Of a DNA stretch of 64,000 nucleotides, positions 8,112 to 41,493 are shown one piece after another (within the stretch, counting starts at the first letter, position 1; every line of letters begins with the position of its first letter). Below the pieces are notes generated by a model. It did not search any database. It saw only the letters and a program-made list of their open reading frames with translations, and was not told where the DNA came from. The DNA lies in assembly GCA_009192285.1 (NCBI GenBank), contig WBVU01000003.1, positions 4,557,973 to 4,621,972 of the forward strand. Reading direction: 5' to 3'. A program made the position numbers and the translations under genes. The DNA comes from Morchella semilibera. Lineage: Eukaryota; Ascomycota; Pezizomycetes; Pezizales; Morchellaceae.

Positions 8112-8885
8112 TGTGACAGAGTATCCTGAGGTAAAGTAGAGGATGACAATGATGACGCAGAAGGCTTTGAGGAGTACAGGCAATGCGACGAGGAGAACAA
8201 CGAAGACAGGGACAACGCCGGGCTGGAGCAAGCACAGGCACCTACGAAGGCAAAGGCAAGGGCAAAGGCAAGGGCAAAGGCACAAGGACTCAGAGCATAG
8301 AGATTGAGGACCAGATGGACCTCAACGAGAACGATATCAGCAAGACTTCATTTGTCTCCTGATGTCTCCTGAGCCTCAGGAGACTCAAAAGATATTCGGG
8401 AGTCTCAGGAGACGCTCAGGAGACTTGGGAGACTGTTGGGAGACTGCAGTCATAAGTTGAGTTTGTTGATGAAGAGGTGCTATGAGTTTTCCTCTTGAGG
8501 AGGACAAGATTTTAAGGACGAGGTTCTATGGCTTGAGGATAGGGGTAAATTCCTATGTACCAAGATAACAGGAAGACGAGACTAAGAAAAAAGAAAGAAA
8601 GAACTAAGGAAAATATTTATCTCTGCTATTTAACACTTCTCTCCTGCCAGTCCGCTATGACTCATACATCGACTCATAGAAACCCATAGGAATCCATCGC
8701 AGCCATACCTCATATTCCTCACCACCATTTCAGCTATTTACATTACAAATCCATCATGCCATCGAACCTCCTAAAACCCAATGACGACACCCTCTCCTCA
8801 GGACACCCCTTCCTCGCTTAGCTATACCATCATAACTACGCTTCGACTACCGAACCCTCGGGACCGATGTTAAGACACCGAGACA
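8112..8885 (-). mobile_element. LTR family A with internal MITE
   Basis: Plus-strand reading begins TGTGACAGAG and ends GACACCGAGACA, so antisense. Interrupted by one MITE. Probably the 3' LTR of a deleted minus-strand Gypsy element whose other LTR lies at 9,636-10,268. Fossil. Confidence 0.7.
8335..8471 (+). mobile_element. CATCAG MITE, left end eroded
   Basis: Left terminus reads TATCAGCAAG, right end GTTGATG. Compared with uninterrupted LTRs (CGATGAGAGGT), the target duplication was probably GA, but about three bases are lost on the left. Confidence 0.75.
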
Positions 8886-9635
8886 GATAAGGTCCCCTAC
8901 TAGGCTATAGCTCCTGATAGGCTGAGGTTTCGAAGGATAATGAAGGTGAAGTGGTTGTTGAAGTTCAGAGCTATGTTCGAGATCACTTGAAGGTTGTCAG
9001 GAAGGTTCCTCGTATCCAACATATTTAACTAAATACTCCACCCGTCGTCTCCTCTTTCTAGAATCTAATATCTCTGCAACCTCCTATTCAATTTTTCCCT
9101 CAACTTTCACAGGTCGGGGTGGTTCAACAATTTGCCCAGGGACAGGATCGTTGAACGCTAGTGATAACAGTAAAACATTTAATACTGGATAGATTTTCAT
9201 GGAAGCAGGTAAGTCCAACTCGTAGGTATAGGGGCTTACAATTCGTTTAATCAAATAGAGACCAAGTTGTCTCAGTCCAATTTCTGCGAGGGTCGCTTTA
9301 TTTCGATAATTCGAGTAGAAAGCTACGGGATCGCGAACGGCGTAACAGAGTGCTGGAGTATGGTATAGATTCGCTATTTCCTCCTGTACCTTCTGAGCCC
9401 AAAATATTTCGCTCTTAAGAAAATCAAAGACTTGTGACGTCCATCAGCAAGACTTCATTTGTCTCCTGATGTCTCCTAAGCCTCAGGAGTCTCAAAAATA
9501 TCCAAGAGTCTCAGGAGACTCTCAGGAGACCCAGGAGAGTGTTGGGAGACTCCAGTTGAAGTTGAGTTTGCTGATGTCTCCTGTACCAACCCATTAGCCT
9601 GGTCCTCATTTACTGTTTGTCCATGTTGTAATGGC
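8886..9635 (-). mobile_element. Ty3/Gypsy Pol 3'-end remnant
   Basis: Minus-strand piece resembling the integrase C-terminus and chromodomain-type tail of Ty3/Gypsy Pol (a VEYLVKYVGYEEPS-like stretch near 9,000-9,060). It is closely similar to 53,563-54,395. It lies between two same-orientation family A LTRs, so this is probably a large internal deletion. A MITE sits inside it. Broken, several disruptions, old. Confidence 0.55.
9442..9576 (+). mobile_element. CATCAG MITE, 135 bp
   Basis: Complete apart from a 2-bp loss; flanked by TC/TC. This non-TA duplication is diagnostic for the family. Confidence 0.9.
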
Positions 9636-10268
9636 TGTAACGGGGTAACCCGACGCAAAGTAGAAGATGACAATGATGACGCAAAGGGACTCAAGGAGCA
9701 TAGCCTACGCGACGAGGAGACCGACGAAGACAGGAACAACGCCAGGCAGGCACAAGCACAGGCACCGGCAAAGGCAAAGGCAAGAGCAAGGGCACAGAAG
9801 TGCAGAGCAGAAAGAGTGAGGGCCGGATGGACCTCAACGATAACAATGAGAGGTACTATGGGTTTTCCCTTTAGGGAGGACAAGATCTTTGAGGACAAGG
9901 AACTATAGCTTGGGAATAGGAGTACATTCCTATGTACCGAGAAGACATGAAGACGAGACAGAGAGAAAAGAAAGAAAGAACCAAGGAAATCATCTATCCC
10001 CGCTATTTAATACCCCTCCTTCACTAGTCCACTATGACTCATATGTCAATTCATAGAAACCCGTAGAAACCCATCGCAACCACACCTCATATTCCTACCC
10101 ACTATCTCTGCTATTTACATTACAAATTCATCACACCATCGAACCTCCTAGAATCCAATGACGACGCCCCCTCCTTAACTCACCCCCTCCTTGCTTAACA
10201 TTACTCTAACAATCATAACAGCGCTTCGACTACTGAACTCTCGGGACCGATGCCAAGACGCTGGGACA
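9636..10268 (-). mobile_element. LTR family A
   Basis: 633 bp, antisense, from TGTAACGGGGTAACCC to CGCTGGGACA. Pairs in orientation with the LTR ending at 8,885. Fossil. Confidence 0.72.
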
Positions 10269-10803
10269 AACAGGATCAGTTCAATACGCGAATTGAGCTT
10301 TCTTATTGCGACCAGATTTCCTTACTGTAATCAATACACTCTATTATGCAAAGATTTTCTTCTCGTTCAACTTCAAACTGTAACGGGATTACATATACCT
10401 GGTTCACGAAATTCATCAATACTTTTCCTATTAATTATAGGATATCAGCTTGCTAAATGGCTGGATGAGAGTAGCTACCTGTACTAATCATCTAGCAAGA
10501 CGGTTAGTTGTTTGATAATGTAGCGGTAGTTCAAGAGCTAGTCGACGGGCACCACCAAATACCGATGAGCCTCTAGAATAATCTATTGGTATTGATCTAG
10601 ATATTTGATCTATAACCAAGAAATCATACTGTGGGATCCGTATAGGGAAGAGTAGGAGGTTTTTGTGAGCCATCGATTATCAGGATAAATTTGTTTGTAA
10701 CTTCAACTAGGAAAACTATAGAGATCTTACGAACTTATAGCAAAAGTCCAACAGAAGAATATCACCACAAAGACCTTTCAGACAGAGTTGGGACATGTTC
10801 CCA
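10269..10803 (-). mobile_element. Possible Gypsy internal remnant
   Basis: Minus-strand sequence with short Gypsy-like stretches directly outside an LTR; homology is weak and the assignment rests mainly on position. Nothing else is recognised here. It ends where the Plavaka element begins. Confidence 0.3.
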
Positions 10804-11155
10804 CATCAGCAAGCTTGCAGTTGTCTCTGGGCGCATAACCCTCCGCCCTGGCGCAAACTTTGTGGTTACCCTTCGCTAGGTGCCACCCTGGGAATCACCC
10901 TGCGCCCGGCTCCCTCCTAGGAATCGTTCTGCGTCAGGTGTTATCCCGTGAATTATTCTGCGCCAGGCGCCATTGTCTGGGATATTCTGCGCTAGGCGCT
11001 ATCCTCTGAAATATTCTGCGCTAGGCGCCCTCTTCTTTTTCTCCATTCACGCCAGGAGATTTCCCGTGTCCCATACGGCACCTGGCGTTCCAGGAGATTT
11101 GGCGATAGCTCCTTTTACTATCGCGAGTCCCTACAAAGTTATAGGTAGCCTATAT
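10804..11155. repeat. Left subterminal repeats of Plavaka-1
   Basis: At least seven degenerate copies of a CTGCGCCAGGCGCC-like motif at roughly 30-45 bp spacing between about 10,835 and 11,095. The same motif in both orientations lies next to the right end. Such arrays are the usual transposase-binding zones of CACTA-type elements (family knowledge); binding here is inferred. Confidence 0.7.
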
Positions 11156-11157
11156 AT

Positions 11158-14100
11158 CTAACTAAATTCATTCCATGTCCGCAGATATATTCTAGTATTC
11201 ACAAGCCAGTTTCCCCTGTCTATCTCAAATAAATGTGTCATCTCTAAAATACACCGTATATTCACTACCAAAATTTGGTTACTACTCTTCTAGAGGCTTT
11301 AAGAATACCTTGAGAGCTATCGGGAATCCCTATGTCCTTGACCTCCAAGAATTCGATCGCGCATAGCCGGTGCGCCCGTCCCCTATTATCTCATAGCTTA
11401 AATAAAACCTCCAGGCGTCCTAGTAGCCTTCCCCCGAACGCTCCCCATTGATCTCGAGTCCCCACCGTTACCATGTTCAATCTCTCCTCGGTGATCCTTT
11501 TCTAAATGCTGCATTTCCCGTGCAGCGCAGGTTATGAATTTCGTACGCATCTGGTCTTTGAAAAATTGGAACCGGAACCTGGAGGCAGGTAAATCGTTCA
11601 ACTCGGAGCTCGCCAAGGTTCTCAAGGCTTCCGCCAAAGCTCTCTGAACACCCCGCATCCTCCGCATATTCTTTTATCATGCGATAAAATCTTATTCTAC
11701 TCATCTTGAGTTCATTTGCAATATCGCATAAGCTTTCTAGCCTGGTAGAGCAGTTGCAAAGCCTTTTTAAGGGTAACTTGGAGTCGATTATAGGCCGTTC
11801 ATTCGGTGTTCTCTTGCGGTCTTCTATCTTAAAAATATCAAGTAATTCCCGCAAGTTCTCACGATGCTCCCATAGGCTCTCGTTGCAGTTCTTGGAAGAT
11901 CCATCAGCTTCCACGATATCCTTGAGGTTCAGTATCCGTATTTCTAGTGCCAATCGTCTTCCGCCGTAATCAAGAATTTGGGTCGCCGTATCAACTTTGT
12001 TTGAAGCGGCGTATGCTTCTTTGATTTGGTGTACGTGGGCCAGTTCGCTGATATCCGTAGAGAACATAGGTATATTCCCGAATCGCTCCACATGCTCTCG
12101 GTAATGTGATAATTGATGCAATTTGATGAAGTTGAAATGAGATTTCTCGCGGATCTCGCGGACCTCTTCTAAGCCATGGTCAATCCTCTGAGAGCCCTCC
12201 TGCTGGAGAGCCCGTGTTCGATTTTTTGCATCTTTCTTAGTTTGCTTGTAGGCTCGAAATTCTAAAAAGATATCCTTATACCTATGGAAGTCCTTGAGAT
12301 AAGCCTCCAAATATTCAAGTGTACTCTTGGTATGATTCCCGTATTGAGCCATCAATGAAAGTCAATCAGTGCCTGAATGCATTTCAAAGCCTTCCCGAAG
12401 TCAGCTCTGACAGAGCTCCCTGGATTTCTCAGAGCTACCGCTAAAGCTCCCAGAACTATACGCCCTAGGTTTCGCATCTCTTTCCCCTGCCATTGCGTGG
12501 TTGCCCTTTAAGGCTTGTTCGGTACTGCAAGCCGAGGATAAGGCCCAATCTTTGACCATGCTATATCGAATGCGTCGAGACACCCGTGTTTCTTGAGAAA
12601 TCCTTGAACCCATTCCATTATATGCTTTAACATTCTGAGGTAGATCTTGTGCAATAGATCTGGTTTGTTCAAGTCGTACACCTTGCATCTCGGCATATCC
12701 CATAAAGCATTGAAGAGAGTCTTCAAAGACCTCGATACAAGGTATTCTACTGGTGATGTATTCGTCGGGTTCTCATTAAACTGCCGTACCATCTCCTGGT
12801 AGGTCTCTTGATCACGCATAGAGCTCTGCCGATAGCTTCCAAGGTTCTTATACTCCACCTCACATCTTGGGCAGGCGAGTTTGCTGATGTTTTGCAACGA
12901 GGCGTGCTCAGGTTGATCCGCGATCCACCCACACAGTACAGGAAAACATAGCCGTTCATATCCATCCGCGCAGGATATCAACTCGCCCTCCTCGCCACTA
13001 CTTTTCAGGCTTTTGAAGATATCTTTGAGAGTGTTGTGCAGAGCCATCCGCGATTCCCGACGCAAAGTTGCATTCGCACTCGTATCTGAATTGAGCTTAT
13101 GGGGCACTGGTAATAGCGCTAGGAGTACTAACGAGTGCCCAGAGACTTTCATTCTCACAGAGGAATTGATATTCCCAATTGTGAGATAGATTGGCTATGC
13201 CTTTTTATCACCACTAAAGTTTGTCAGGTGAGTGCCATCCGAGGCACAGATTACCGGAACTAACGTTGAACCCTCAGGGAAAGAATTCTTTTCGAGATCA
13301 GTCATGACTTTTCTGACTCTAACGAAACCTCCTAAAGATCTCGGAAAGCTTCCCCTCACCTGTGTTTCCTACCACCAGTCCCTTGTATGCATTTCGCCGT
13401 AAATTCTCTCTCCCTTTTCGTTGTACTCCATTAACGGTGCAAATATAAGAGACTCCTTGAATGCCCGTTGTCCAAGAAGGAATCGAATAATTGTGATAGG
13501 GTCGCGATAATAATATGGTATGTTTTTCTCTCCTATAACAACCTCCGCATAGTTCCATGTTGACCTCCCTAGTCAACCGTTCATTTCCTCCATTTTTCGT
13601 ATAAAACTTTGCCCATTTCTATAGGAGTTATGGCGATGGTCTCCAGGGGCATGTAGAAAGAAGCTATCGATACTTCCTTGTGATGCTTTGGACAAAATAA
13701 AGTACCGCGCCATCCGGAATTCATACGATGAGTTGAGAGGTTGCCACGGATTGCCGAGAAGCCGTTGTGCACTTTCCTGATAGCCCTCAGAGCGATATAG
13801 AGCCTCCCCAGCACCTTCGTAGACAGTGGTGGATGCATCGCGAGTAACTCCCAACTCCTCCTCACAATCCTCCCTATCGTCTACAAAGTAAGACTCTGAT
13901 TCTAGGTCTGAAGCTCCAGCAACTTAGAATATGTAGATGTGACGGAGTAACCTGGCGCAAAGAAGAAGATGACAATGATGACACAGAAGAACCTGAGGAG
14001 CACAGCCTAGCGACGAGGGGACCGATGAAGACAAAGGCAACACTGGGCAGGCACAAGCACAGGCACCGGCGAAGGCAAAGGCAAGGACAAAGGCACAAGG

Positions 14101-14778
14101 GCGCAGAGCAGGGAAAGTGAGGACCAGATGGACCTCAACGAGAATGATGAGAGATGCTATGGATTTCCTCTCATCAGAGGATCAAGTATTTGGTGCGAGA
14201 GGCTATGGCTTAGAAATAGGAGTAGATTCCTATGTACCGAAATAATAGGACGACGAGACAGAGAGAAAAGAAAGAAAGAACTAAGGAAAACATCCAACCC
14301 CGCTATTTAACACATCTTCCCCACCAGTCCGCTATAACCCACACTTTCGCTCGTAGAATCTCATGGAAACCCATCGCAACCACACCTCGTATTTCTCCCC
14401 ACTATTTTAGCTATTTACATTACCAATCTATCACGCCACCAAACCTCCTAGATTCCAATGACGATACCCTCCCCTTAGCACACCCCCTTCCTCGCTTAAC
14501 CATTCCTAAACAATTGCAATAGCGCTTCGACTACCAAGCCCTCGGGACCGATGCCAAGACGCTGGGACAGTAGATAACCCGTCCTCGCAACTAGCATCAT
14601 CCAGATCAGAGCCATCTAAAACCTTGTGAGACTGCTATAGTCTGTGATTCTCCTGCAAAAGATCACATTGATTTGTGAACCATCCATCCGCTTCATTGGG
14701 GTGATTATTCCGTAGGTGCTTCTCAAAATTCACTGAGGAGCTGTATCGCTTGCTGCAAAAGGGACAGGAGGAATTCAT
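11158..14778 (-). pseudogene. Plavaka-type transposase (C2H2 zinc finger), decayed
   Basis: The N-terminus reads MNSSCPFCSKRYSSSVNF, a C-x2-C-x12-H-x4-H zinc finger that also opens the second copy. After an LTR insertion the Plavaka body follows: TTVYEGAGEALY, a PYYYRDPITIIRFLLG-like segment, LVLLALLPVPHKL, ELISCADGYERL, FPVLCGWIADQPEHA, ACPRCEVEY, VYDLNKPDLLHKIYL, FNFIKLHQLSHYREHVERFG, AYAASNKVD, and the C-terminal WLVNTRIYLRTWNEFS stop. The family is a DDE-type DNA transposase of the CMC group that cuts and pastes elements with its own termini. The gene runs toward the nearest element end, as in the second copy. Several stops and frame changes separate the open segments (for example after the KGSPRRD stretch near 11,477), so it is likely inactive. 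Some breaks may be introns. Confidence 0.85.
13938..14569 (-). mobile_element. Solo LTR family A, target GTAGA
   Basis: 632 bp with an exact 5-bp GTAGA duplication on both sides. Inserted between the zinc finger and the body of the transposase gene. Fossil; the perfect duplication suggests it is one of the younger insertions. Confidence 0.92.
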
Positions 14779-14940
14779 TAGGTGTCGCGATAACTCCCAT
14801 GGCTCTCGGAGTTGTCAAAATTACTACTGCCAGGCCTGTGAATTACTAATACTTGTGAGGGTGTATTGGAGGGCACACAACCTCTTGCCAAACAAACTTT
14901 CTAGCAACGTCATATATTCAAGCTGAAAACTAACCAACAT

Positions 14941-15294
14941 ATGCTTTCAGATCAAACTCAACATCTATCGCACATATCGGCCAAACCTTCTAGGGATTCA
15001 CCACTACTCCAAAAGGTTTCACGAGTACCCTCAAAATCATGGCTCAAAATCGTGGGCAATGCCAAGAAATCCATATCTTTTGATACCGAAATGACTACAT
15101 CTGTACTTGAAAACGAGATCAGAACAGCTAACGATTCGAAGAAAAGCAATCATGCCAACATCAAAACGGACTCGAATATCAACACTCATACTAATTTACG
15201 TCATTTAGTAACTTGTATAAAACCGTCGAAACACACCCGAGCAATCAATGATTCTGGCTCTATGCGTTCTGGCAAAGACTGTGGAAGCTTTTGA
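14941..15294 (+). CDS. Small unrecognised open frame inside Plavaka-1
   Basis: 117 codons in the divergent region between the transposase and accessory gene A. Preceded by a CTAAC-like branch site and CTTTCAG just upstream, so it could be an exon rather than a gene start. Rich in Ser, Thr, Lys and Asn; no motif recognised. Coding status is uncertain. Confidence 0.2.
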   Translation: MLSDQTQHLSHISAKPSRDSPLLQKVSRVPSKSWLKIVGNAKKSISFDTEMTTSVLENEIRTANDSKKSNHANIKTDSNINTHTNLRHLVTCIKPSKHTRAINDSGSMRSGKDCGSF

Positions 15295-15606
15295 AAGATC
15301 CTCTCATAGCTCTGAATGACTAATTTGATTTCGTGTGAGTGTTGGAAGAAGAGGTATAAGAACCTCTTCTTTCACCTTTGGGAGACCTTTCTTCACCATC
15401 CCCATTACTCTTCGAAACCTCGACAGGCATTGAGCTGGTGCGTTCTACCTATATTACGTTAATCATTCTTGTTCGTACAGCCTTTTCAATTTCATTTCAA
15501 CTTGATATCATCCACTTCGACAATTTCAACTTGATACCTCCCCAGAATTTCCAGTTGAAATATGCCTTCCAACGCTACTAAGAGTACCCCTGGGAAGGTA
15601 GTATAT

Positions 15607-16057
15607 TATCACGGGGCGGGACGAAGGGTTGAGCGAAGCGAGCCAAGGTACACTACCGAGGCGGGACGTAACAGTAATATCCGAAGCGGGGCGAGACGAG
15701 ACTATGAAGCGAGGCGAAATAGAACGTAGAGCAAATTAACCGAATATATTCGAAAAGACTACAAACTCCTGAGGATAGGAAGGTTGCGTGAAGAGGAAAG
15801 AAAGAAAGCTATCTACAAGCAAGGGCAAGGCCCATATATATATCACACCACCCGACCCGATGACTAACCCGAGTAACCCTGTACAGAACCCCATAGAATC
15901 TCCCAAGACCCCTATCTCCGAACACCACCTTATCCCCTATACCCGAGCTCTTACTTCCGAACCAAACCCCTGATACCGAAACCCAAAGAACCTTTAAGAA
16001 ACCCCTGACTAATCCCTCTTCCCGCAACACCACTCAACCAAGCATTACGCCGTGATA
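15607..16057 (-). mobile_element. Solo LTR family C, target TATAT
   Basis: 451 bp bounded by TATCACGG and CCGTGATA with an exact TATAT duplication. Antisense relative to the copy at 60,729. Inserted in the 5' region of accessory gene A. Fossil. Confidence 0.85.
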
Positions 16058-16194
16058 TATATAAATACCACATGGTTGTTCCCTAATCACTATACATTAG
16101 TTTCTAACATACCTCCAGTCCGGTGGCAAGTCGAAAGTCCCCTCCAATCGTACTCACGATACCTTACAATGCACTGCCAAAAGCCCTAGAGTAG

Positions 16195-16540
16195 AGATCT
16201 CAACCCCCCGAAAGCATCAGCGTCAACCAATCTCTGAATCCGAAGACAATATTGCCACAAGACCCCGTCATTCGAACCTACAAGCCTTTGATAGCCCTCC
16301 CCAAAGCTCTCCAAGATTGTTCGCAACCCCCCGAAAATGTCGGCGCCAACCAGTTCTTAATTCCGAAGACGAGATTGCCACATGACCCCATCACTCGAAC
16401 CTGCAGGCTCCTGATAGTCCTGACATCACTCCCGGAAGCCCCGAAAGATCTCGACCAACCCCTCGAAAGAGTCTGTACCAGCCTATCCCTGAAGCCGAAG
16501 AGGAAGAGTTGACTATTCTCTCACATAGAGTAGGAATTCC
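16195..16540 (+). repeat. Degenerate ~125-bp tandem repeat, about 3 units
   Basis: Three successive units share CAACCCCCCGAAA, CCGAAGACnAnATTGCCAC and CATnACTCGAACCT-like blocks in the same order; the third is the most diverged and runs into the next open frame. It probably encodes the repetitive N-terminal part of accessory gene A. Confidence 0.6.
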
Positions 16541-18671
16541 CTGGAGTTACGACGGTCCACCACCAGACATCACCCTTAAACAGGCGCTGACACCCACGAA
16601 GACTGTTCCGGCGCTGCCCAAGGCTTCGCAAGCACCCAAGGCCCCCCCAGTTTGGAACAAGGCAACAGCAGCAGCAGATATCGCATTAGCTAAAGCTAAT
16701 CCAAGCACCCCAGAGACTATCACATCTGCCAACGCCCCAGAAACAACTTCCAGAACCACAGCAAAAACTTCTAAAACCACAGCAAAACCTTCCAAAACCA
16801 CAGCAAAACCTTCCAAAACCACAGCAAAAACTTCCAAAACCACCTCAGCATCAGCAACACGGACCGCTGTCGCAGGCCTAAGCATTCCAAAAGATACCTC
16901 CAAAACCACATCAGTATCAGCAACAAGGACTGCTGTCGCAGGCCCAAGCACTCTAAAAGTCACCTCCAAAGCTCCAAAAGGAACAGCAACAGCACCAACC
17001 GCCCGACAAGATCTGTGGTCTGGGCCATCCTCTACTACTAATTCCCAGCCTGCTAGTACACCCCCGAGAGCCATCCACAAAGCTCCCAGAGCTATCGCGA
17101 TATCCAAGAGCGCACATCAAAACGAAGATAGAGACAAGCACAATCATCCTGAGGACGGAGACAAAAACAAAGACGAAGACGAGGACGAAGACGAAGACGA
17201 GGACGAAGATGAGGATGGTGATGGAGACGACGAAGACGAACCTCGCCACGCCTCATAAGGACGTCGTCAGAGACAGAAAAAAAAAACGCTTTCAAGGCAA
17301 GGTGGTCAAAGGAGGTTCATCAGCAAACTCAACTTGTGACTGGAGTCTCCCAACAGTCTCCCAGGTCTCCTGAGAGTCTCCTGAGACTCCTGGATATTTT
17401 TTGAGTCTCCTGAGGCTCAGGAGACATCAGGAGACAAATGAGGTCTTGCTGATGTTGTTTCGATGGACGCAAGCACTGCCAAGGTGACTTTGGGATTGGC
17501 CGCCTCCCCAAAGGGTTACAACAGATTGAGGAAAGACCTCGCCGCGGAGATGACAAGCACAAGATGGGTCAATAAAAGAACTAGCGGGCTTACTCATTTT
17601 AATGAGTTGGTGGCATGGCTTCTTGAACAGAGGCCTCTGGTAGGTTTGGCCACGATCATGGGAGGCTAGAGGAATAGCGCCAGGGCCAAGATACAGGAAG
17701 CACTTACCTGACTAGTAGTCGATGTCAGTCGGAAGGAAAAGATCTCTAAGGCCTTGGGGAATCGAGAATTCACCGAGATTGACACTCATGACCCCGAGCT
17801 GGATGCTGACGATTCGGATGATCTGCCGCAAGGGCTTTCAGGGCACTCGGCAAAGCGCCAAAAGCTATCGCCACAATGTAAGCGGACTAATATCTGGGTC
17901 ACCATTGTCGACCCTGACCATTTTAATGAATACGATCCTGATGCTAGGAGACGGGAATACACTTGGACCCATGCACATAATGAGCCTAGTTACGCTGCCG
18001 TGATGACTCGGAGGAATATCCAAGAGCTTGGAAGAGTCGTCTGCAAGCATATCCCCATTGGTCGGTTGGTCCGGGAATTCTATGGCTCGATGAACCAACC
18101 AGCCGAACCGGAAGAGGAGCTAGCCTGGGTCCGCATAATGGACACTGAGGAGGTAGAAGCCTGGATGCTCGGAAGTCTGGCGAAACCTCTCCGTGTTCTG
18201 GCCATACTTCACAGAGTATGCCAGACTGAACCCCATGGTGGTGATGAAACCCCTCCTAGAAGACTATATCAGCCATATACCACTAGTGACGATTATGGAC
18301 ACTTTGATTTTCTGGCTGAAGACTCTGAGTTTGAGGGCGGAGTTAGATTGATCTCCATTGGAACCAGGCTTATCATGCCGAAGAGTGATGCGTCATTCTA
18401 GGTAAACCTCCACAAGATCTCGTCACGCCGGAATAGGCAGCAATCAGCCCTTGAGCTCCTCAATCAAAAGTACCTTAATAAGTACCCTGTGGGTGTTGGT
18501 ATTGCGGACCCTAACTTCAGAATCGGGCGTGTCTGGGGGGCTGCGGAGATCGCTCAGAAGCGTGAGGAGGACAGAGCCAAAAACCCGCATGGCCGTGCAA
18601 CGGGAAAGCTGAAGACTCCCTTGGTTCCCCTGCTCAGAGGTAGTGGTGATGGTGATGGTGATAGTGTTTAG
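16509..18671 (+). pseudogene. Accessory gene A, copy A1 (unknown family)
   Basis: Not a recognised family. The 5' part encodes a Thr/Lys/Ala-rich repeat (TAKTSKTTAKPSKTT-type units) ending in an Asp/Glu tract of (DE)n type. The conserved part follows: LRKDLAAEMTSTRWVNK (17,520s), an AKIQEALTxLVVDVSRK segment, IWVTIVDPDHF, VREFYGSMNQP, WMLGSLAKPLRVLAILH, LIMPKSDASF and LELLNQKYLNKYPVGVGIADP. Each block aligns in order with the two minus-strand copies at 22.7-26.7 kb, for example ADEMTRTAWVNKSSSG. It is transcribed away from the transposase. A MITE interrupts it at 17,318, and a few in-frame stops (some perhaps intronic) make it probably non-functional now. Conservation of block order between diverged elements implies past selection as part of the transposon. 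Role unknown; acidic tract and basic repeats would suit a DNA- or protein-binding partner, which is speculation. Confidence 0.6.
17318..17454 (-). mobile_element. CATCAG MITE, 137 bp
   Basis: Complete, flanked by TT/TT, inside accessory gene A1. Confidence 0.93.
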
Positions 18672-18678
18672 GCCTATT

Positions 18679-18815
18679 CATCAGCAAGACTTGATTTGTC
18701 TCCTGATGTCTCCCGAGCCTCAGGAGGCTCAAAAAATATCCCAGAGTCTCAGGAGACTCTCAGGAGACCTCGGAGACTGTTGGGAGACTCCAGTCACAAA
18801 TTGAGTTTGCTGATG
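18679..18815 (+). mobile_element. CATCAG MITE, 137 bp
   Basis: Complete, flanked by TT/TT, just after the last stop of accessory gene A1. Confidence 0.93.
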
Positions 18816-19417
18816 TTTGGAGAGAGTTTGGACAGGTTTTGCGAGATTCTAGTGAGTTATTCGCATTTTAGCATGATTGATCTATTAACTGACCCACAGA
18901 TTTTTTTCTCCCACTATTTTTGTTAGGGTATACAGAGGTTTCGAAAGGTTTGTCGATAGCTTTAAGAGCTCTCAACACGGTCGGTAACAGCTTTGTGTTC
19001 GGTATTATTTGTTGTTTCCTTAATCAGGGCATGTTAACCACATACCATTTGGGGTGATTACTATTATTAGAGAGTGTTGATTTGAGGCTTGGTATTATTA
19101 GAGAGCGTTGATTTATTCTTAGGTTGGGAGCATTTATTTGATACTGATAGGTAGCGAATATCAAAGTGATTTGAAGCCCGAATGCTACTAGTGATCTTGA
19201 AAGCTATCGCGAAGGCTCCTGGGAGCATCATTGTTGCGAGTGATTACCGATGAGGCTATTTTAACCCAAATTGGTGTGCCCAGCCCATCTAATTAGCCAA
19301 TTTTGTCTGTATGTGGTTAGCTTTAGATTACATAAAAATTTTCACGCCAAGCGCTTCTTTTGATTAGAAATCAGGACAGCCTTCAAAACCCCCAGGAGAG
19401 CCCTCACAGGCATCAAG

Positions 19418-21926
19418 ATGCCTCAAGCAAAGCGTCTCTCAACGTCGGAAACGACCAAATCTACTCCAAGCCTCCTTGACCCTGAAGTCCACAATGGGGA
19501 AACTACAGAGCAAGATTCGAATGAGGGTGAAGCTGTACCCGAGAAAGCTCCCAACACTCTCACGAGAGTCAGCACAACCACGAAGAAAGCTCAAGGAAAG
19601 CGGCTGCCCCAAAGGAGTACTTCTTCTCGTAAACGCTTTAGGCCCCCAAATGAAATTTCATCGGATGAGGACCTACCTGACCCCTCAGAGCGCCGCTCGA
19701 CCAAAGCCTCGACCAAAGCCCAGGGAGTCCTCAAATCATCTCTTAAAAGCCATTCTCGACAGAACAAAAAATCTAGAAAATCCGGTGCTCGAGTAGAGTT
19801 TAAACTCGAAAGACACCCGTCCGAGGGAGAGCAAGAGGTTCAAGAGCGCCTTACAACCAGTTCTTCAGAATATGATGATGACCTAGACACTCCAGTACTA
19901 CGCGAACAAAGCATGAGGCATTAGTTCGCAGACAAAAGACCCCCGGGTACGCAAGTGGCCGGAAAGGGACCTCCGAGTAGTCAGGTAACGACTGCCAGAA
20001 GTGTGGCGAGTGCCCGGAGAAAGCCCACCGGTGTGGTTGCTGAGGCAATTGCGTCGTCAGAAGTGGAGATTAACGTTATTCAAGTAATTAACCCCAGTCT
20101 TTTTTTTTGATAAGTGACTGAGATGAAAGAAATTTTAGAAGGGAAATCGTACATCGTCGAAGCCAACGAAAAATCCATCAAGTGCTCCACAAAGACCGCC
20201 GATGACTCCTGTGGACCCAGTGATGGCTCCTACTGCTACCTCCAGGAGACTGAGTGCTTTTAATTACTCTTCATCTTTTCGTATCCCCCCCCCTTCCTCT
20301 TCTAGGTTAGGAGAATCGTCACCAACACCAATGGTATTGAATCCTGGATTCATGCCACTAAGCGATGATAGCTCCTGGGGCGGTTCTCCGAGCTTTGGGA
20401 TTAGCTCTCGAATGCCTCGAACAATGGAGCCATCCCCACTAGGGAGACCACCTCGGAATAATGATACAGCGAACCCTAACTATCTGTCGCCTTCACCTTC
20501 TTTACCTCCGCCTCATGATGACGACAGGTATTCTTACCAAACTCCTGAAAGCTCTCATCAAGCCTCTGCTGGCCAGATACCTCGTACACCTGCACCAAAC
20601 TCTAGAAGTGCGAGTGTGCTTCCTTTGGAAGCTCAAAGAATTGAGAAAAGGTGTAGTATATTGATAGGTGATCACACACTGTTTGAAGACCCTTTTCCAA
20701 GTCCTGCGAGACTCTCGGTATTGGTGGTGAATATGTGGGTACAAGCAAGTCGTAGTTTGGGAATCAGCGCAGAAATCGACGAGGTTATTATAAAACAGGT
20801 GAGTGTCCCCGAAGATCTCATGATAGCTCCTAAGGAACTGAGGAGGCCCCACAGGTTAGAAGCTTGCACTCCCGAGTGCGGTCACACTTGATGAGCGCAG
20901 TGAAGGAATGGCTAGCAGACTCCAGGATTTACGGAATTGCAAAAATTTGCACACAAGTGGAGAGGGCCGAAAGAGTCGACTATCTTTTGAGGAATGATCG
21001 GTTCATCAGCCATCCAGCACATTATGAGGTATATCCAAATTTTTGGGAACTACGACGATAGCTCTAACAAGCTTTAGGCATGCAGCTGCAAATTCTTAGC
21101 TCCGGAGATCATCGAGATTTTATATTATAGGTTTTTTGATGGGACTAGGAGGCGAGGATCCCGTGAACCAGATTTACTCGACTGAATAAACCATACATTG
21201 ATATGCCTGATAGCAACCGCCATTTGGCATGGGATTTGCGCATCATCAGCAAGACTTCATTTGTCTCCTGATATCTCCTGAGCCTCATGAGATTCAAAAA
21301 ATATCCAGGAGTCTCAGGAGACTCTCATGAGACTTGAGAGACTGTTGGGAGACTCCAGTCATAAGTTGAGTTTGCTGATGATGGTCCACGGGGAATTATG
21401 TGATACCGCAAAATTTCCAGACTCAAAATGATAGTGTAGTGAGTAAGTATTTCTCATAGGTTCTGGAGGTATAGCGGATTCTAACTAAGGTATTACGAAT
21501 GCTCTGGAAACCTTCACGAGGATGGGAAACACTTGGAGGTCACGTAGTCGTTCCAACCAGGAAGGAATCTTGAAATTGACAAAGGACAATCTTCGAGACA
21601 AGGTAAGAGCCCGATCTTAATTACCGACTATAACCCAAACTGATAATTTGTAGATACAAGAGAAGAAGGGGGTTACGGTCGAGGATATTCCGGTTGAGGG
21701 TCTTAGCGAGGACGATGATGCTCTGGCTGAAGCTCTGGAAGCTCTCAGGAGTGCTCGGGGAGATCAAGGCCAGAAATCTAAACCCGGCCAAACTAACCTT
21801 CCACCACACGGGCTTGAATATGGTACGGATAGAGAGTCGGACCTAATGGAAGAAGAGGAGGAGATAGAGGAAATAGTAGAGGAGGAGGGTGGAGAAATAA
21901 CAGAAGACGAGAGCTATAATAACTAA
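19418..21926 (+). CDS. DUF6532-like protein gene carried by Plavaka-1
   Basis: Several exon-like segments in order. The N-terminus is basic and low complexity (MPQAKRLSTSETTKSTP onward, with KKSRKSGARVEF); a Ser/Pro-rich linker follows (20,202 onward). A folded-looking part, about 20,600-21,450, reads LEAQRIEKRCSILIGDH, SHLMSAVKEWLADSRIYG, ERAERVDYLLRNDRFI, FFDGTRRRG and LIATAIWHGICAWSTGNY, in the order seen in fungal DUF6532 domains, which typically end with an ATAI...WSTG helix. The C-terminus is acidic (LMEEEEEIEEIVEEE). Candidate introns start at GTAATTAAC (about 20,080), GTGAGTG (about 20,799), GTATATCC (about 21,030) and GTAAGAGC (about 21,603). A MITE splits AWSTG; its removal with one AT restores that motif. 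At least one extra stop is visible, so the gene may be decayed. Family assignment is from memory of the motif pattern. Confidence 0.55.
21244..21380 (+). mobile_element. CATCAG MITE, 137 bp
   Basis: Complete, flanked by AT/AT. Removing it and one AT restores the frame through ICAWSTGNY in the DUF6532-like gene. Confidence 0.93.
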
Positions 21927-22109
21927 GGGAATAACAAGATCTCTAAGAGGTATGGGGAAGTCTGTAGAGACAGTAATATGTATTATTATAATTGTTATAT
22001 AGTGGCGAGACCATAAGTGAATATATCCGTACCATTCAAGGAATAGAAGAGATCTCTGAAAGCTATCGTGAAGTGAATTAATACATGAAAAGTACTAGGT
22101 AGCACTAGG

Positions 22110-22426
22110 AGCTAGATGTGCGCGCCAGGGGCACCCAGGTACGATAAATGATTAAAAGTATGTTACCAGGAGAGATAGGGGCGGAAAGGTAAAGCCCGGG
22201 CGGAGCCAGGCGCAAAACGTTTCCGCCAGGGGCGTTCCTGAGAGAAAACCTAACTCCTGGCGCTAACCGAGGTTGTGATTTGGTTCAGGGCGCTCAGGGC
22301 GCTGAAAGCCCCGCCCGGAGCACCCGGAGGTTTGGCGAGGTTCTCAGGAGAATGAGTTTTTATCCCGTGCGCCCTCAGCGCCCTGAACGCCTGGAGCGCC
22401 CCATGAAATCTACAGGTTTGCTGATG
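22110..22426. repeat. Right subterminal repeats of Plavaka-1
   Basis: Dense GC-rich motifs (GCGCGCCAGGGGC, CCAGGCGC, CCTGGCGC, AGGGCGCT, GCGCCC) in both orientations up to the terminus GGTTTGCTGATG. They mirror the left-end array, supporting that both ends belong to one element. Confidence 0.7.
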
Positions 22427-22513
22427 TTCTAAGCTCTAATCAAGCCTTTTAAGCTCCAATCAACACCCCTCGGGCCTTCTAAACTCACACGAGGTCACTA
22501 GAGTCCTCAGAGA

Positions 22514-22654: not shown

Positions 22655-24514
22655 CGGTTGTTGGCATCTCCGTCTTCACCATTGGTGCGACTAAACAGGT
22701 GATTTCTTTCGACCTGGGTCTAAATACGTTCACGATCATAGTAACAAGACTCAAAGGTAATGGCATTTGGGTAGAGCCTTCTATAATGCTCATCGAGCCT
22801 TCTTCCAATCACCGCGTACCTCTCGGAACGCTTATGCACCACCGCCTGGACCATCTGGCACCCCTCATCAGTACGGGGCATAGAGATATTTAAACCTTTT
22901 TGATAAACCTTATTCCTAAACGTTAGTATTTCCTCCTCAACATCAAGCTCTATTCCATCAATGTCGCCTCTAGTAAGATGCTGATATCCTTCTAGTGAAG
23001 GTGTTTGAGGCATTTGGGTAGGCCCAGTAATGATTGCCGAAGGCTTGTGAAGCACCGCACAGAGCCTTAAGGGTTTTGCCTCTGTGGTTTTGAGCCAACC
23101 TTCCAGTTCTTCAGAATCTCCGATCTGCACATATTCCGGATTTGGGAGATAAGGTGCCTGCCCCCGGGGGGCCGAATTGGACAACGCCCTGTAGAAGGCT
23201 CGGAAAGCCCTCGCGGGGCTCCCTGGAGCCGCTGATGAGCCTCACTTTATTGCAAGTCTTTCTAAATCTTGCATAGACAACCCCTGAAGGATGTTAATAA
23301 AGGGGATAAGCGATCCGGACCTGTACCAGTCATCGTGGCGGTATATATTGCTGGGGATGCTTGTAACTCTTTCTGGGTCAATAATATGTATAGTTATTGC
23401 CAGCCTGTAGGGTATTCCCAAGGCCTGCCAGAACTCTGGTGTGGTCTGCAGTTCGTTTGTGCGGGCAGGAGGTGCCCCGGAGGTGGGTGTATTTTAACTT
23501 CATCATCTGCGCCCCCCAAAGCCCCACCGTGGCATTGGGCTGTCCTGTTTCTCTTCTGGGATAGATCGATAATGAGGCGGAGGAGGGCTGCTTAGATCTT
23601 TATAGATTCCTCTAAAGTCCTGGCTGACCATGTGGTCTTTAGCGCCTTGTTACGGAACGGGGCCGGAGGACTTGGATGAGAGAGATCTATAATAAAAGCA
23701 GAGTCGGGCAGAGGGTCTACAAGGAATCTCTGATCAGAACGTGGAGACGAAGGTACCAGTAAACGATTCGGATTGCTGGCATGTATAAGTCGGAGCAAGA
23801 CAGGAGGCTAAGGGATTAACCGAAGCTAGAGGGTTCAGGACACGGTGTTACCAAAGGGCACAACCGATGATGGGGATGAGGCAAAGTATAGAACCAAGTA
23901 TATTCTATATTATAACAGAAGAAAAACTAGGTGAAAGCTTAGAGACAAGAAACCTAAAGGGAAAAGTTGATAACAGGAAGTTGTGTAAGGAAAGAAGAAA
24001 GAAAGACAAAAGAAATCCCAGCCTATATATATAATCTCCCAATCCTCCAATTACTAATCCATACCACGGAATCCCATAGAAACCTAAAGAGAAACTATCC
24101 ACACCGCTAACTGATCTTCATAATAAAACCCGATAATTCATCCCGAAGAAACCCGACATTATTACTTAATCACTTCCTACAATCCCAGACGTGCCGTGAC
24201 ACGCCTTGATGGCCCTGTAGTCCATGCAAAATTGACACCGATTGTTGAATAATTGTTCGCCCGAGGTGACCTTATTAACCCACCCTATTCTTACCATCTC
24301 GTCCGCGAGGTCGCTACGGAGAGCCTTATAGATAGCATCTTTTCCAGTCAATTGTAGGATTCTTCGGCAGTCGTGGATTGTCGTGTACTTGTATGTAGCA
24401 GCTGGTCTCCCGAGTGGTGGCATGGTTGGAACATTTTCCGGGTTTGTAGGGCCTTTTTGGAGGTTTGGGGTAGGTGTTAAGATTTGATGGGACGTTTAAT
24501 GACGTGGCTGTCAA
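22655..24514 (-). pseudogene. Accessory gene A, copy A2a, split by an LTR
   Basis: Minus-strand copy of the unrecognised accessory gene. N-terminal piece (24,166-24,514): YTTIHDCRRILQLTGKDAIY and LADEMVRIGWVNKVTSG. After an LTR (23,648-24,201) the frame resumes with TLEESIKI, a conserved IIDP...IYRHDDWYR-like block and LSNSAPRGQAPYLPN, then LRLCAVLHKPSAIITGP, IDGIELDVEEEILTFRNK and LNISMPRTDEGCQMVQAVVH. Block order matches A1 and A2b. It is shorter at the N-terminus than A2b and lacks the Ser-rich head. Several frame breaks. It lies just inside the right end of Plavaka-1, facing away from the Plavaka-2 transposase; it may belong to Plavaka-2 as a tandem duplicate or to a third, truncated element. 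Confidence 0.62.
23648..24201 (-). mobile_element. Solo LTR family D, target CGCCT
   Basis: 554 bp, TGTTACGGAA...CGTGACA on the plus strand, flanked by exact CGCCT repeats. Interrupts accessory copy A2a. Same family as 62,563-63,055. Fossil, relatively young by its intact duplication. Confidence 0.9.
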
Positions 24515-24745
24515 TGGCTTGAATATAGAGCTTTAGAGTGGATACTGTATCATCTTAAATACTGTATAGTAATTCAAGATCGAAGTCTTGAAAGCCTCGA
24601 GTGGCCTGAAGAACCGTATGTTTGAAAGTGGCAGGTTTGAAAGTGGTAGGTTTGAAAACATGAAAACGGGTGAGCGGTGTTTATCTATGATCAAACTTCA
24701 CTACATAGCGAATATCGTATCACATGATATCACTCAAATCAGGAG
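24505..24745 (-). promoter_or_regulatory. Conserved upstream region of accessory gene A2a
   Basis: Shares GCTTGAATATAGAGC, an ACTGTATA/GTGTATTATA-like stretch and GATCAAACTTCACTACnT with 26,670-26,905 upstream of A2b, in the same order and orientation. Conservation of non-coding sequence at the 5' end of both copies suggests a promoter; no experiment supports it here. Confidence 0.45.
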
Positions 24746-24980: not shown

Positions 24981-25199
24981 AAAGATAAATCATATAATTA
25001 TTGCTAGGATCCAAAGAGGTAACCGGGATAAAATTAAGAACTGCATGTGCAAAAACAAAAAACTCCAATTCCCAAATGAAGGCTCCTCAAGCCTTCTAAA
25101 CTGCCTACAGAGGTTTGAGAGCCTATCACCGTCGTCGCTGGTTTTATCCTCTGCACCTACAGATGGTTTTTCTCAGTCAGAATAATAAGATTCATATAA

Positions 25200-26710
25200 A
25201 TGCCATTCAGAAAGGGCATTCTATAATGCCCATCTCGATAAGTTCATGGATAGGGTATATTCAGACCTACAAGTTCCTAATCCAAAAGCTCTATATCATT
25301 CATATCGTCCTCAGTCAGGTAATCTCATCCCTCTGGTGAAGGCGTTTGGGGCCTTTGGGTAGGCCCAGCTACGATTGCCGAAGGCCTATGAAGCACCGCA
25401 CAAAGCCTTAATGGTTTTGCCTCTGTGGCCCTGAGCCAACCATCCAGCTCTTGATCGTCTCTGATCGGCACATATTCCAGATCTGGGGATAAGCTGCCTG
25501 CCCCAGGGGTACCGAATTGGACATCGCCCCGTAGAAGGCTCGAACAGCCCTCTTAGGGCCCCCTGGAGCGGCCGGTGGGACTCGCTTCAGCGCGAGGGCT
25601 GCTATATCATACATAGACATCACTTCGAGAATGCCGGTAAATGGCATAAGCGACGCAATCCCATACCAGTCGTATGGACGGTACGTATCGCTTGAGATGA
25701 CAGTAGCCTTTTCTGGGTCAATAACATGTACGGTTATTGCGGGCCTGGGAAGTATTCCTAAATTCTCCCAGGACTTGAGTACCATCCTATAATATCTCTC
25801 ATTATCCACTGCACTTTCCAAAGCTTCGTCATGTCGTTTATCTATCCTTTTCCTCTTCTGTGATAGATCTACAATGAGATGGGCTAGGGCTGCTTGGATC
25901 TTTATAGAGTCCTCTGAAGCCTTTTCTAACCACTTGGGCTTCAAATTCGTAAGAGCTTTGTGATTCATGGCATATTCGCATAAATAATTGAATGAAGAAT
26001 CGCCCGAGCTGGATTTATTCACCCACGCTGTCCTTGTCATCTCATCGGCGAGCTCTTTGCGTAAAGCCTTATAGATACCATCTTTATCTAAGTGCAAGAT
26101 TCTCCGGCAGTCGTATGTGGTCTGGCAAATGTACTTGGCGGGCTGTTTGTATCGTGGTGCCATTTCAGCATCTTCCTTGATCTTTTGGACCCGCTTCCTG
26201 ATTTGTGGGTCTGACTTGGGTAGGGAACGTCGAGTCTGAGGGGTAGGTGTCATTGGGGGGGCGCCAGGGGCCATCGATAAGCCCTTGGGAGCCCTGGATC
26301 CTGAAGGCCCAGATCCTGGAGGGCGTAGAACGGGGCTTTTCGGAGGCTCCTCAGAGGTTTTCGACTTTACCTTCTAGGTGCTCCGGAGTATCTCTTCCTC
26401 TGACTCAATCTCTATGTAGGATGCAACACTACTGCTAGAGGCTGAACTAAGGCTGGAGTCTGAACTCTCACTATCAATGTACTACCCGGGGATTAATGGT
26501 CCGACCTCCTGTTTTTTGATGCGTTTTTATCACTATGGGAGGATATGCGGCTTCGTTTTTGGCCTTGTTTAGGGCTTGCCGGAGTGTTGTCGGGGGGGTT
26601 TCGTGAGGGGTGCGGTTTGGATGCCGACTTATAGAAAGAGGAAAAAAAAGCCTCCTGTATATATGTCAATTGCTTGAATATAGAGCAATAGAGAGGATAA
26701 CATACCATCT
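25200..26710 (-). pseudogene. Accessory gene A, copy A2b
   Basis: The best-preserved copy: an uninterrupted 288-codon stretch (25,408-26,274), preceded upstream by a Ser/Glu-rich head (about 26,300-26,700). Visible blocks: YICQTTYDCRRILHLDKDGI, LADEMTRTAWVNKSSSG, a basic helix LSQKRKRIDKRHDEALES, RPAITVHVIDPEKATVISSD, YRPYDWYGIASLMPF and RAVRAFYGAMSNS. The 3' part decays below 25,408. It runs divergently from the Plavaka-2 transposase, the arrangement also seen in Plavaka-1. Predicted soluble; no signal peptide or membrane segment. Function unknown. Confidence 0.62.
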
Positions 26711-26910
26711 TATATCGTGTATTATAAACTCTTGAAGGCTTCCAGAGACTTGGAGATAGTGTAGTAAGCTTGAGCTAGTGTATCAATCCTAGGAATGGAT
26801 AGGGATAGAAGTAGGAGAATAGGAGAACGCGGGGTATCTTCGATCAAACTTCACTACGTCATATATTGGAGTAACAATTGAACACTATGTTGAATCATAT
26901 GATGTCACTC

Positions 26911-27535
26911 TATTCCGGCGTCTTGGCATTAGTCCTGAGGGTTCGGTAGTCGAAGCGCTGTTGTGATTGTTTAGGTATGGATAAGCGAGGAAGGGGTGTG
27001 CTAGAGGGGAGTGTCGTCATTGGGTTCTAGGAGATTCGATGGCGTGATAAATTTGTAATGGAAATAACGGAGGGGAGGAATACAAGGTGTGGTAGCGATG
27101 GGTTTCTATGAGGTTCTATGGGCGAAAGTGTGAGTCATAACGGACTGGTGGGGGAGATGTGTTAAATAGCGGAGATAGATGTTTTTCTTAGTTCTTTCTT
27201 TCTTTTCTCTCTATCTCGTCTTCCTGTTATCTCGGTACATAGGAATCTACTCCTATTCCGAAGCCATAGCTCCTTGTACCAAAAACTCTGTCCTCTATAA
27301 AGAGGAAATCTATAGTACTTTTTATCATTCACGTTGAAGTCCATCTGGTTCTCACCTTCTCTGCCCTGTGCTCTTGTGCCCTTGCTCTTGTCTTTACTTT
27401 CGTCGGTGTCTGTGCTTGTGCCTGCCCGGTGTTGCCCTTGTCTTTGTCGGTCTCCTTGTTGCTTAGGCTGTACTCCTCGGGTTCTTCTGCGTCATCATTA
27501 TCATCTTCTTTTTTGCGTCGGGTTACTCCGTCACA
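26911..27535 (+). mobile_element. Solo LTR family A, target CACTC
   Basis: 625 bp ending GTTACTCCGTCACA with exact CACTC repeats. Inserted in the divergent intergenic region between accessory copy A2b and the Plavaka-2 transposase. Fossil. Confidence 0.9.
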
Positions 27536-28454
27536 CACTCGAATATTGTGATCAGAACGCTAGTACGATAAGATATGATCTATCGATGCACGGGCCCATT
27601 TAGAGTACCAACCTCCCCGAAGCCTCCCAAGCCTAAGAGGCTTAGGTAGCCCCCAGGAACTCTAGCGTCTCCAAAGCTTCCAGAGCCTCCGAAGCCTCCA
27701 CCAATATTGACTATCAGCAATGAGATCACGATGTCCATTTTGCATACAGAGCTACGCCAATGCTGGTAATTTCGATCGACATCTCTCAAAAGTCCACCCA
27801 TCGCGGACCCACAGGTGTTACGATAGGCAGCTTTCAGGGACTCCCGTTGAGGGCCTGCGGAGCCTTCCCGAAGTCCCAAGAGGTCCCTATGAGGGCGGAC
27901 ATTTGAACATACCAGACGAAAGTGAATCCGATACTGAATTGAATGATGATTATACTTTAGGATCCACGCGGTTCAATCTAGCAACTACCATATACGAGGG
28001 TGCAGGGAAGCCTCTTTTCACCGCAACGGGATATGATGAAGGATCGGAAAGACTTTTGATCAACCTATGGCAGCTTTTCGAATCAGCAAAGGAATTTCGG
28101 TTATCGCGCTGGATCCTACAATCGAATGTATCTCAGGGTCAAATAGACGATTTCTTCCGCACCATACGCCCTCTATCAGGCTCCTACAGCACTAGTAGAG
28201 GCTTCGCAAGCCTCATTGACAAGATTTGGTCTATGGGGGGGTTAGGAAAAGAGAGCTAGATACACTCAGAGGTCGAAATAGGTGGGCAAAAAATTCCTTA
28301 CTACTACAGGGACCCTATGAATATAGTGTGTTTTCTTCTGGGACAATGTACATTTAGGGAATCCCTGGTGTATTCACCTATTATGGAATACAATGAAATG
28401 GGGGAGCGGATGTATGGGGAGATGCAAACGGTAGACTGGTGGTGGGATATGCAG

Positions 28455-28515
28455 GTTCGCAACACTGACTTAGAAGGCTCAGGGAGCGTCCGCTAACCCC
28501 TCACAAATGTTATAG
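28455..28515 (+). other. Probable intron in the Plavaka-2 transposase
   Basis: GTTCGC...TTATAG, 61 bp. Removing it joins WWWDMQ to NTLPEGSTVVPV, the usual family sequence. Confidence 0.6.
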
Positions 28516-29475
28516 AATACCCTTCCAGAAGGATCAACGGTGGTGCCAGTAATATGTGCATTAGACGGAACACACCTCACTAATTTCAGTGGTGACAAGA
28601 AGGCTTGGCCAGTATACCTAACGATTGGCAATATCACCTCGGACACACAAAATAAATCCTCTAATTACGCGATCATACTCCTAGCTCTACTGCCAGTGAC
28701 ACCAAGGGTTGGAGTGGGTACGAACGAACGCCGTTGGGAGAACTAGATGGTCCTTCACCATGTCCTCTCTGAAGTTCTCGAAGGCCTTCAGGGCCCTGCG
28801 GAAAGGGGTGAGCTTATAATATGCGCTGATGGCTATGTGCGTCTAAGTTATCCGATACTATGTGTATGGATTGCAAGTCAACCAGAACATGTCTCGCTGC
28901 TAAACCTCAACAATCAGGCCTGCCCTAGGTGCGAAGTTGATTTCAAGGGCCTGGGGAGCCTTCAAGAAAACCCGCCACGCATTCAGGAGCGATATATCGA
29001 AATGGTAGAGCGTTATAAGGAGGATACGTCAGATACAGCACCTGTTGAATACCTGGTGTCGAAATCCTTCAAACCTCTGTACAATGCTTTGTGGGCCTTG
29101 CCGAAGGCTCAGGTGTATGATCTTCACAAGCCAGATATATTGCATAATATTTATCTCGGCCTATTGAAACATATGATGGAATGGATTCAATCATTTTTGA
29201 AAAAACATAATCGGCTAGAGAATTTTAATTGGGCTTGGGCATCCATTAAGCCTTACCCAGGGCTTGCTGTACCAAATAAGGCTTATCGGGCAACTACTCA
29301 ATGGCAAGGTAAAGAAATACGTCCTCTCGGCCGGATAGTTCTAGGAGCCTTTGCAGTGGCTCTTTGGAACCCCCCAAAAGCTTCGCAGAACGACTTCGGG
29401 AGATCCTTGAGGTGTGTTCGGTCACTAATCGATTTCCACTTGATGGCACAGTACACTACTAATACAAAAGAAACA

Positions 29476-29612
29476 CATCAGCAAACTCAACTTGTGACTG
29501 GAGTCTCCCAACAGTCTCCCATGTCTCCTCAGAGTCTCCTGAGACTCCTGGATATTTTTTGAGTGTCCTGAGGCTCAGGAGACATCAAGAGACAAATGAA
29601 GTCTTGCTAATG
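29476..29612 (-). mobile_element. CATCAG MITE, 137 bp, inside transposase
   Basis: Flanked by CA/CA. Removing it and one CA gives GAAACACTAGAC, restoring the transposase frame (TKETLDYLQGYL), parallel to TKSTLEYLEAYL in the other copy. Confidence 0.95.
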
Positions 29613-29874
29613 CACTAGACTATCTTCAAGGGTATCTCGAAGATTTCCACAAGCATAAGGATGTATTTCTGGAATTTAGAGCCGATAAACGAACAAGGAA
29701 AGAGGCAAAGAATCGAACAAAGACGCTGCAAGGCTCGGGAAGTATTGACAGAGGCCTGGCGGAGCTTGAAGAAATTTGCCAGGCTTCTCATTTCAACTTC
29801 ATTAAAATGCATCTTCTTTCACACTTCCGGGGGCATGTAGAGCGATTTGGTAATATTTCAATATTTTCAACCGA

Positions 29875-30011
29875 CATCAGCAAACTCAACTTGTGACTGG
29901 AGTCTCCCAAGAGTCTCCCGGGTCTCCTGAGACTCTCCTGAGACTCCTGAATATTTTTTAAGTCTCCTGAGGCTCAGGAGACATCAGGAGACAAATGAAG
30001 TCTTGCTGATG
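29875..30011 (-). mobile_element. CATCAG MITE, 137 bp, inside transposase
   Basis: Flanked by GA/GA. Without it the frame reads FSTDVGELARRQQIKMAYA, matching FSTDISELAHVHQIKEAYA in the other transposase. Confidence 0.95.
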
Positions 30012-41491: not shown

Positions 41492-41493
41492 TA

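Follow-up and report, generated by a model that had tools for sequence, protein, structure and literature searches.

A likely PlavakaB-type element, decayed and carrying three genes, beside a second Plavaka copy and 137-bp MITEs

Layout of the locus

The stretch of DNA analysed here, a window of 64 kb, contains a candidate transposable element (element A) with a transposase gene region and two further gene regions, A1 and A2, between short identical tips. Its features are as follows.

10804-22426: Plavaka element A with PlavakaB-type ends, 11,623 bp including nested insertions, assigned from tips, arrays and the published signature
10804-10812 (+): left tip, CATCAGCAA, outer flank CA (10802-10803)
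10813-11110: left subterminal GC-rich array with GGCGC-type motifs, from motif counts
11197-14778 (-): transposase A gene region, zinc-finger-like start at 14,778-14,698, C-terminal part to 11,197
13938-14569 (+): solo LTR (TG..CA) within the transposase A gene region, 5-bp duplication GTAGA
15562-18671 (+): region of gene A1, from an unnamed family; low complexity towards the N terminus, conservation at about 17,517-18,671, start codon guessed
17318-17454 (+): 137-bp MITE in the A1 gene region, duplication TT
18679-18815 (-): 137-bp MITE just after A1, duplication TT
19418-21926 (+): gene A2 region with DUF6532 (PF20149), recognised exons 20613-20798, 20855-21028 and 21078-21182
21244-21380 (-): 137-bp MITE that interrupts the DUF6532 domain of A2, with AT duplicated
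22110-22417: right subterminal GC-rich array, from motif counts
22418-22426 (-): right tip, TTGCTGATG, outer flank TT (22427-22428)

The 3′ side of transposase A points to 10,804, and A1 and A2, at 15.6-18.7 kb and 19.4-21.9 kb on the plus strand, are directed towards 22,426, so that the layout claimed in the original prediction, a Plavaka transposase facing one end and two further genes facing the other, is borne out.

The surrounding DNA holds a repeat of about 630 bp (TG..CA), whose copies, roughly 72-86% alike and probably solo LTRs, lie in eight places in the window.

8,112-8,886 (split by a MITE at 8,335-8,471), 9,634-10,268, 13,938-14,569 and 26,911-27,535: copies of the repeat of about 630 bp
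30,859-31,489, 57,835-58,457, 59,240-59,875 and 61,928-62,568: further copies of the same repeat

Three of these copies have 5-bp duplications (GTAGA, CACTC and GAACA). Host-like genes recognised with Pfam (Peroxin-3, an RFX DNA-binding protein and UreF, at 33,269-33,709, 38,422-39,351 and 46,006-46,926) suggest a fungal chromosome. Tandem repeats of 14-bp period, with a further local duplication, occupy 40,392-42,445. Rfam returned 0 matches at gathering scores. Searches of viral contigs and plasmids for relatives of the proteins, and of viral and bacterial or archaeal contigs for the MITE pattern, gave none, in collections that are non-fungal and thus uninformative for fungi.

Termini and subterminal arrays

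When the first 30 bases at each end of element A are compared, the first 9 are common to the two tips, 10804-10812 (+) and 22418-22426 (-), as had been claimed. Excerpts of Kojima 2025 (PMC12730594) describe PlavakaB as a lineage of Plavaka, in the CMCT clade, with termini CATCA..TGATG and target duplications of 2-3 bp; Plavaka families come with and without TET/JBP genes in the same excerpts. Element A carries the PlavakaB termini at 10804 and 22426 and itself lacks the 2- or 3-bp duplication. The flanks read CA versus TT over 2 bp and CCA versus TTC over 3 bp; the weak point named in the original prediction, the differing outer dinucleotides, is therefore real, and an old element may have lost its duplication.

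The tip is far too frequent for chance. Counting both strands, the 64-kb window contains CATCAGCAA at 41 sites against 0.70 expected, a count attained in 0 of 100 shuffles, and 27 of the 41 sites are termini of the 16 listed 137-bp MITE copies. Between the ends of element A the only other exact non-MITE tips are two, both within coding regions, a number at shuffle level (mean 0.70, maximum 4 per window). The 64-kb window contains no second copy with both ends of element A; with neither such a copy nor a target duplication, co-transposition of the two ends is likely rather than proven.

By all three motif counts, no other 300-bp window in the 64 kb is as dense as the two just inside the tips, for motifs picked post hoc after inspection of the arrays: A/G/T-GGCGC occurs 9 and 8 times at the ends of element A against 4 in the next 300-bp window, GCGC 9 and 9 times against 5, and GGCG 12 and 15 times against 9. 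The two arrays have 43 6-mers in common, a number matched by 0 of 1242 other windows; the corresponding numbers are 20 for 7-mers (1 of 1242), 8 for 8-mers (16 of 1242) and 3 for 9-mers (91 of 1242). Direct and inverted orientation give equally strong word sharing, and alignment of the whole arrays is not above shuffles, with a score of 23 inverted (reached by 69 of 1000) and 22 direct (58 of 1000). Because the full arrays are not alignable above shuffles, the ‘matching’ arrays of the original prediction match in short common motifs only: they are the two densest in 64 kb and have short words in common, but form no alignable inverted repeat. Their likeness consists of repeated short motifs, with no long inverted repeat.

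Genes of element A

The transposase gene is recognisable and broken. Pfam finds PF18759, the Plavaka transposase domain, at 12508-13194 (-) with an E value of 9e-44 and a further piece at 13372-13572 (-) with 5e-11; the domain is found in both the A copy and the second copy described below. In excerpts of PMC12730594, Plavaka transposases carry a C(2)C and an H(3-4)H motif between the second D and the last E; transposases A and B each contain CPRC, a candidate for the first of these motifs. Alignment with transposase B gives five in-frame stops in transposase A, a count that leaves out a second-frame alignment, and the zinc-finger and catalytic parts are in different frames across the solo LTR at 13938-14569. 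Element A thus lacks the intact transposase that autonomy requires. Given the five stops and the solo LTR in the transposase region, together with MITEs in the A1 and A2 gene regions, element A is inactive, and the autonomy once ascribed to it falls away. Repeat-induced mutation was considered and the claim dropped, as RIP-type indices of the element and of host genes were not clearly different.

Gene A1 matches no Pfam family above cut-off; AP_endonuc_2, at 12.6 bits, was rejected against a cut-off of 31.1. Its structure model is of low confidence (mean pLDDT 31) and gave no function. Near its start, 15,600-16,115 looks LTR-like by eye; BLAST found no second copy of this stretch in the window, and no duplication could be fixed for an insertion there.

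Gene A2 scores 32.6 bits for DUF6532 (cut-off 24) when three exons are joined at GT-AG introns with no insertion crossed. Removing the MITE at 21,244 with one copy of the AT raises the score to 64 bits. With only the last two exons the score is 18.6 bits, under the cut-off, and the separate ORFs receive no Pfam score. The DUF6532 identity of A2, predicted from sequence, therefore depends on the exon model, which the gain after MITE removal supports. To our knowledge, DUF6532 is a fungal domain without known function.

Pfam found no TET/JBP family among the A1, A2 and B1 pieces searched, the published PE type of that family being very divergent according to excerpts of PMC12730594. In a published domain survey (PMC8955403), a single sentence lists Plavaka, KDZ and DUF6532 together as further domains in two Ganoderma species. 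The excerpts returned by a literature search on Plavaka, DUF6532 and PF20149 contained no statement of Plavaka carrying DUF6532. The new details here are DUF6532 on the third gene and, in both copies, the position of the second gene's unnamed family, divergent beside the transposase.

A second Plavaka copy

To the right of element A lies a second Plavaka transposase, copy B, with relatives of A1 beside it.

22729-24734 (-): B1′, which duplicates B1 together with the region upstream of it; the part at about 23,642-24,211 is unmatched
25170-26373 (-): gene B1 region, A1 relative, divergent to transposase B
26911-27535 (-): solo LTR between B1 and transposase B, duplication CACTC
27720-30857 (+): gene region of transposase B, from the second Plavaka copy, containing stops and two inserted MITEs
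31880-32306: possible right end of copy B, comprising a subterminal array and, at 32298-32306, the tip TTGCTGATG with flank TA

Transposase B is 38-65% identical to transposase A, varying by stretch; three separate pieces match PF18759 (4e-24, 2e-20 and 4e-13), and a zf-C2H2_4 match lies below cut-off (E 0.016). Both B1 and B1′ are 28% identical to A1 (E 2e-17 and 7e-10, respectively), and a duplication accounts for the pair, 22,729-24,734 matching 25,170-26,886. The divergent pair of a transposase and an A1-type gene is accordingly found twice in the window. Synonymous divergence of the A1-type genes (dS 2.6 for A1 versus B1 and 1.6 versus B1′) is in the same range as that of two transposase stretches (1.8 and 1.8), all near saturation. 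The dN/dS values, which take in neutral decay since insertion, are 0.35 for A1 versus B1, 0.48 versus B1′ and 0.42 for B1 versus B1′ pooled, and 0.17 and 0.13 for the two transposase stretches, A versus B.

The extent of copy B is less sharply drawn. Its right boundary is only likely to lie near 32,306, and no left boundary was found; a candidate left end at 24,841 (CATCAGTAG, two mismatches) was rejected, chance giving about half such a site in that stretch by a hand estimate. Synteny alone places B1 and transposase B in what would be one element. No A2 counterpart appeared beside copy B in an ORF comparison (E up to 1e-8). As to what the A1 relatives are, BAF1_ABF1 for B1 (12.5 bits, cut-off 28.9) and Glu_cys_ligase for B1′ (15.6 bits, cut-off 27) were both rejected, the B1 structure model (mean pLDDT 51, low confidence) gave no function and 0 solved structures matched B1 at E up to 1.

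Copy B bears on two alternative readings of element A. The first takes the ends from two copies of one Plavaka family, joined by deletion or rearrangement, so that A1 and A2 may have come with the copy on the right and the transposase with the one on the left. Such a history would fit the outer dinucleotides, CA versus TT, whereas 13 of the 16 listed MITEs retain theirs; it would also fit a neighbourhood rearranged by the B1/B1′ duplication and array words that are not specific to the inverted orientation. Against it, the GGCGC arrays just inside the two tips are denser than any others in the 64 kb, A1 is divergent to transposase A as B1 is to transposase B, and the other exact non-MITE tips between the ends amount to two coding matches, at shuffle level. 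We regard a junction of two copies as unlikely.

The second alternative, that A1 and A2 are enclosed host genes or later insertions outside the inherited element, has in its favour that nothing like A2 was seen beside copy B and that DUF6532 is without known function. In both copies, however, the A1 family lies divergently from Plavaka, at similar dS, and Plavaka, KDZ and DUF6532 are named together for two Ganoderma species in PMC8955403; we judge this reading quite improbable. Element A is instead likely to be a real, decayed, gene-carrying element of PlavakaB type, its ends and genes forming one unit.

Relation to the 137-bp MITEs

The 137-bp MITEs and other small elements are also found elsewhere in the window.

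29476-29612: MITE in transposase B, duplication CA
29875-30011: MITE in transposase B, duplication GA
32146-32254: 109-bp small element in the possible right array of copy B, duplication GG
61,265: 89-bp element, duplication CA

The tips of the 137-bp MITEs are the same as those of element A. An exact 2-bp duplication lies outside the tips in 13 of the 16 listed copies (those at 1901, 8335 and 63149 being without one), in a list that leaves out partial or composite copies near 2,036-2,149, 47,496-47,771 and 48,229-48,357. At each of the two MITE sites in transposase B, removal of the MITE with one copy of the duplication yields a frame that is colinear with that of transposase A; transposase A thereby serves as a paralogous empty site that fixes the MITE boundaries and the duplication length. 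The three MITEs within element A diverge from the consensus by 0.7, 5.1 and 5.1%; as they are inserted in it, at least these three are younger than element A.

Some arrangements of the tips stand apart. At 47,496-47,771, two MITE copies form a composite with a TG duplication round the whole, as if mobile as a unit. A lone CATCAGCAA tip with flank TA lies at 53,783; within about 6 kb it has no exact partner and none with up to two mismatches, except for a two-mismatch candidate at 59,390 that fits the TA flank.

Element A had been proposed as the large autonomous element from which the CATCAG MITEs descend. Local alignment does not bear this out beyond the 9-bp tip: the MITE interior aligns to the left array of element A with a score of 16 and to the right array with 20, values reached by 666 and 101 per 1000 shuffles and thus not above them, and to two host-gene controls with 16 and 21 (668 and 79 per 1000). 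By contrast, arrays near copy B score 35 (31.88-32.14 kb, 0 of 1000 shuffles as high) and 30 (24.74-25.00 kb, 1 of 1000), the 109-bp and 89-bp elements 60 and 36 (0 of 1000 each), a stretch at 27,585 scores 23 (11 of 1000) and the copy B tip 21 (23 of 1000). Shared 7-mers give a less clear picture than alignment. The MITE interior has 8 in common with the left and 13 with the right array of element A (numbers that 17% and 6% of background windows match or exceed), 13 with the 24.84-kb array (6%) and 52 with the right side of copy B, a count that includes the 109-bp element. By this measure the right array of element A is as MITE-like as the 24.84-kb array, so that the preference for B-type arrays as MITE-like rests on the alignment scores.

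For element A as autonomous parent speak the identical 9-bp tips, a terminal class common to it and the MITEs, and the 13 MITE-interior 7-mers of its right array, a number that 6% of background windows reach. Set against these are alignment to its arrays at shuffle level (666 and 101 per 1000) where the copy-B-side arrays match (0 and 1 per 1000), the three MITEs inserted in it and its inactivation, which leave its parentage very improbable. The parent of the 137-bp MITEs is probably an element other than A. What stands of the original prediction is a Plavaka-type element with both ends, three genes and the terminal class of the MITEs; autonomy and MITE ancestry do not.

A proposed history

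We put at about three in four the probability of the whole explanation, in which element A is an old, inactive three-gene element of PlavakaB class, later hit by an LTR and by MITEs that were probably moved by another transposase. In its active era, the transposase would have bound the tips and subterminal arrays of element A and excised the element, which would have reinserted with a 2- or 3-bp target duplication, a length taken from the PlavakaB family and the local MITEs. The element would have borne A1 and A2 across a divergent intergenic region from the transposase. The second genes of En/Spm and VANDAL elements act as subterminal array binders or anti-silencing factors; by analogy, our best guess is that A1 encoded a transposase partner with one of these roles. 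Afterwards, the solo LTR and three 137-bp MITEs would have hit element A. The MITEs were probably mobilised by another PlavakaB-type transposase, with GGAGACTC/GGAGGCTC-type arrays, nearer to copy B than to A. A bolder combination is conceivable though doubtful, namely that DUF6532 is at least partly transposon-borne on Plavaka and that A1/B1 is a second, conserved element protein which co-diverged with the transposase and the arrays, in an En/Spm-like two-protein system.

Comparison with known systems

En/Spm (CACTA) elements have subterminal arrays, a transposase plus a second protein (TnpA/TnpD) and a 3-bp duplication. Element A resembles them in its subterminal arrays and in joining a transposase with a second gene, A1, whose protein is predicted; it differs in that its termini are not CACTA, that the duplication of the related MITEs is 2 bp rather than 3 and that A1 has no recognised DNA-binding domain.

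In Amoebidium, according to excerpts of PMC11244446, giant Plavaka repeats of up to 50 kb include genes for tyrosine recombinases. The likeness to these repeats lies in a Plavaka transposase adjoining further genes; the difference is that no tyrosine recombinase family was found among the element pieces searched with Pfam.

With PlavakaB, as described in excerpts of PMC12730594, the locus shares the Plavaka transposase domain, CATCA..TGATG termini, 2-bp duplications (here on the MITEs) and an extra gene, borne there by some families. The extra genes here differ, being A1, with no Pfam family above cut-off, and A2, with DUF6532, and there is no duplication at A. Element A is thus a gene-rich addition to the little-studied PlavakaB elements, in which A2 links DUF6532, a domain without known function, to a mobile element and in which two Plavaka copies display one divergent two-gene layout. 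The common 9-base tip is a signature of the lineage, not proof of parentage for nearby small elements.
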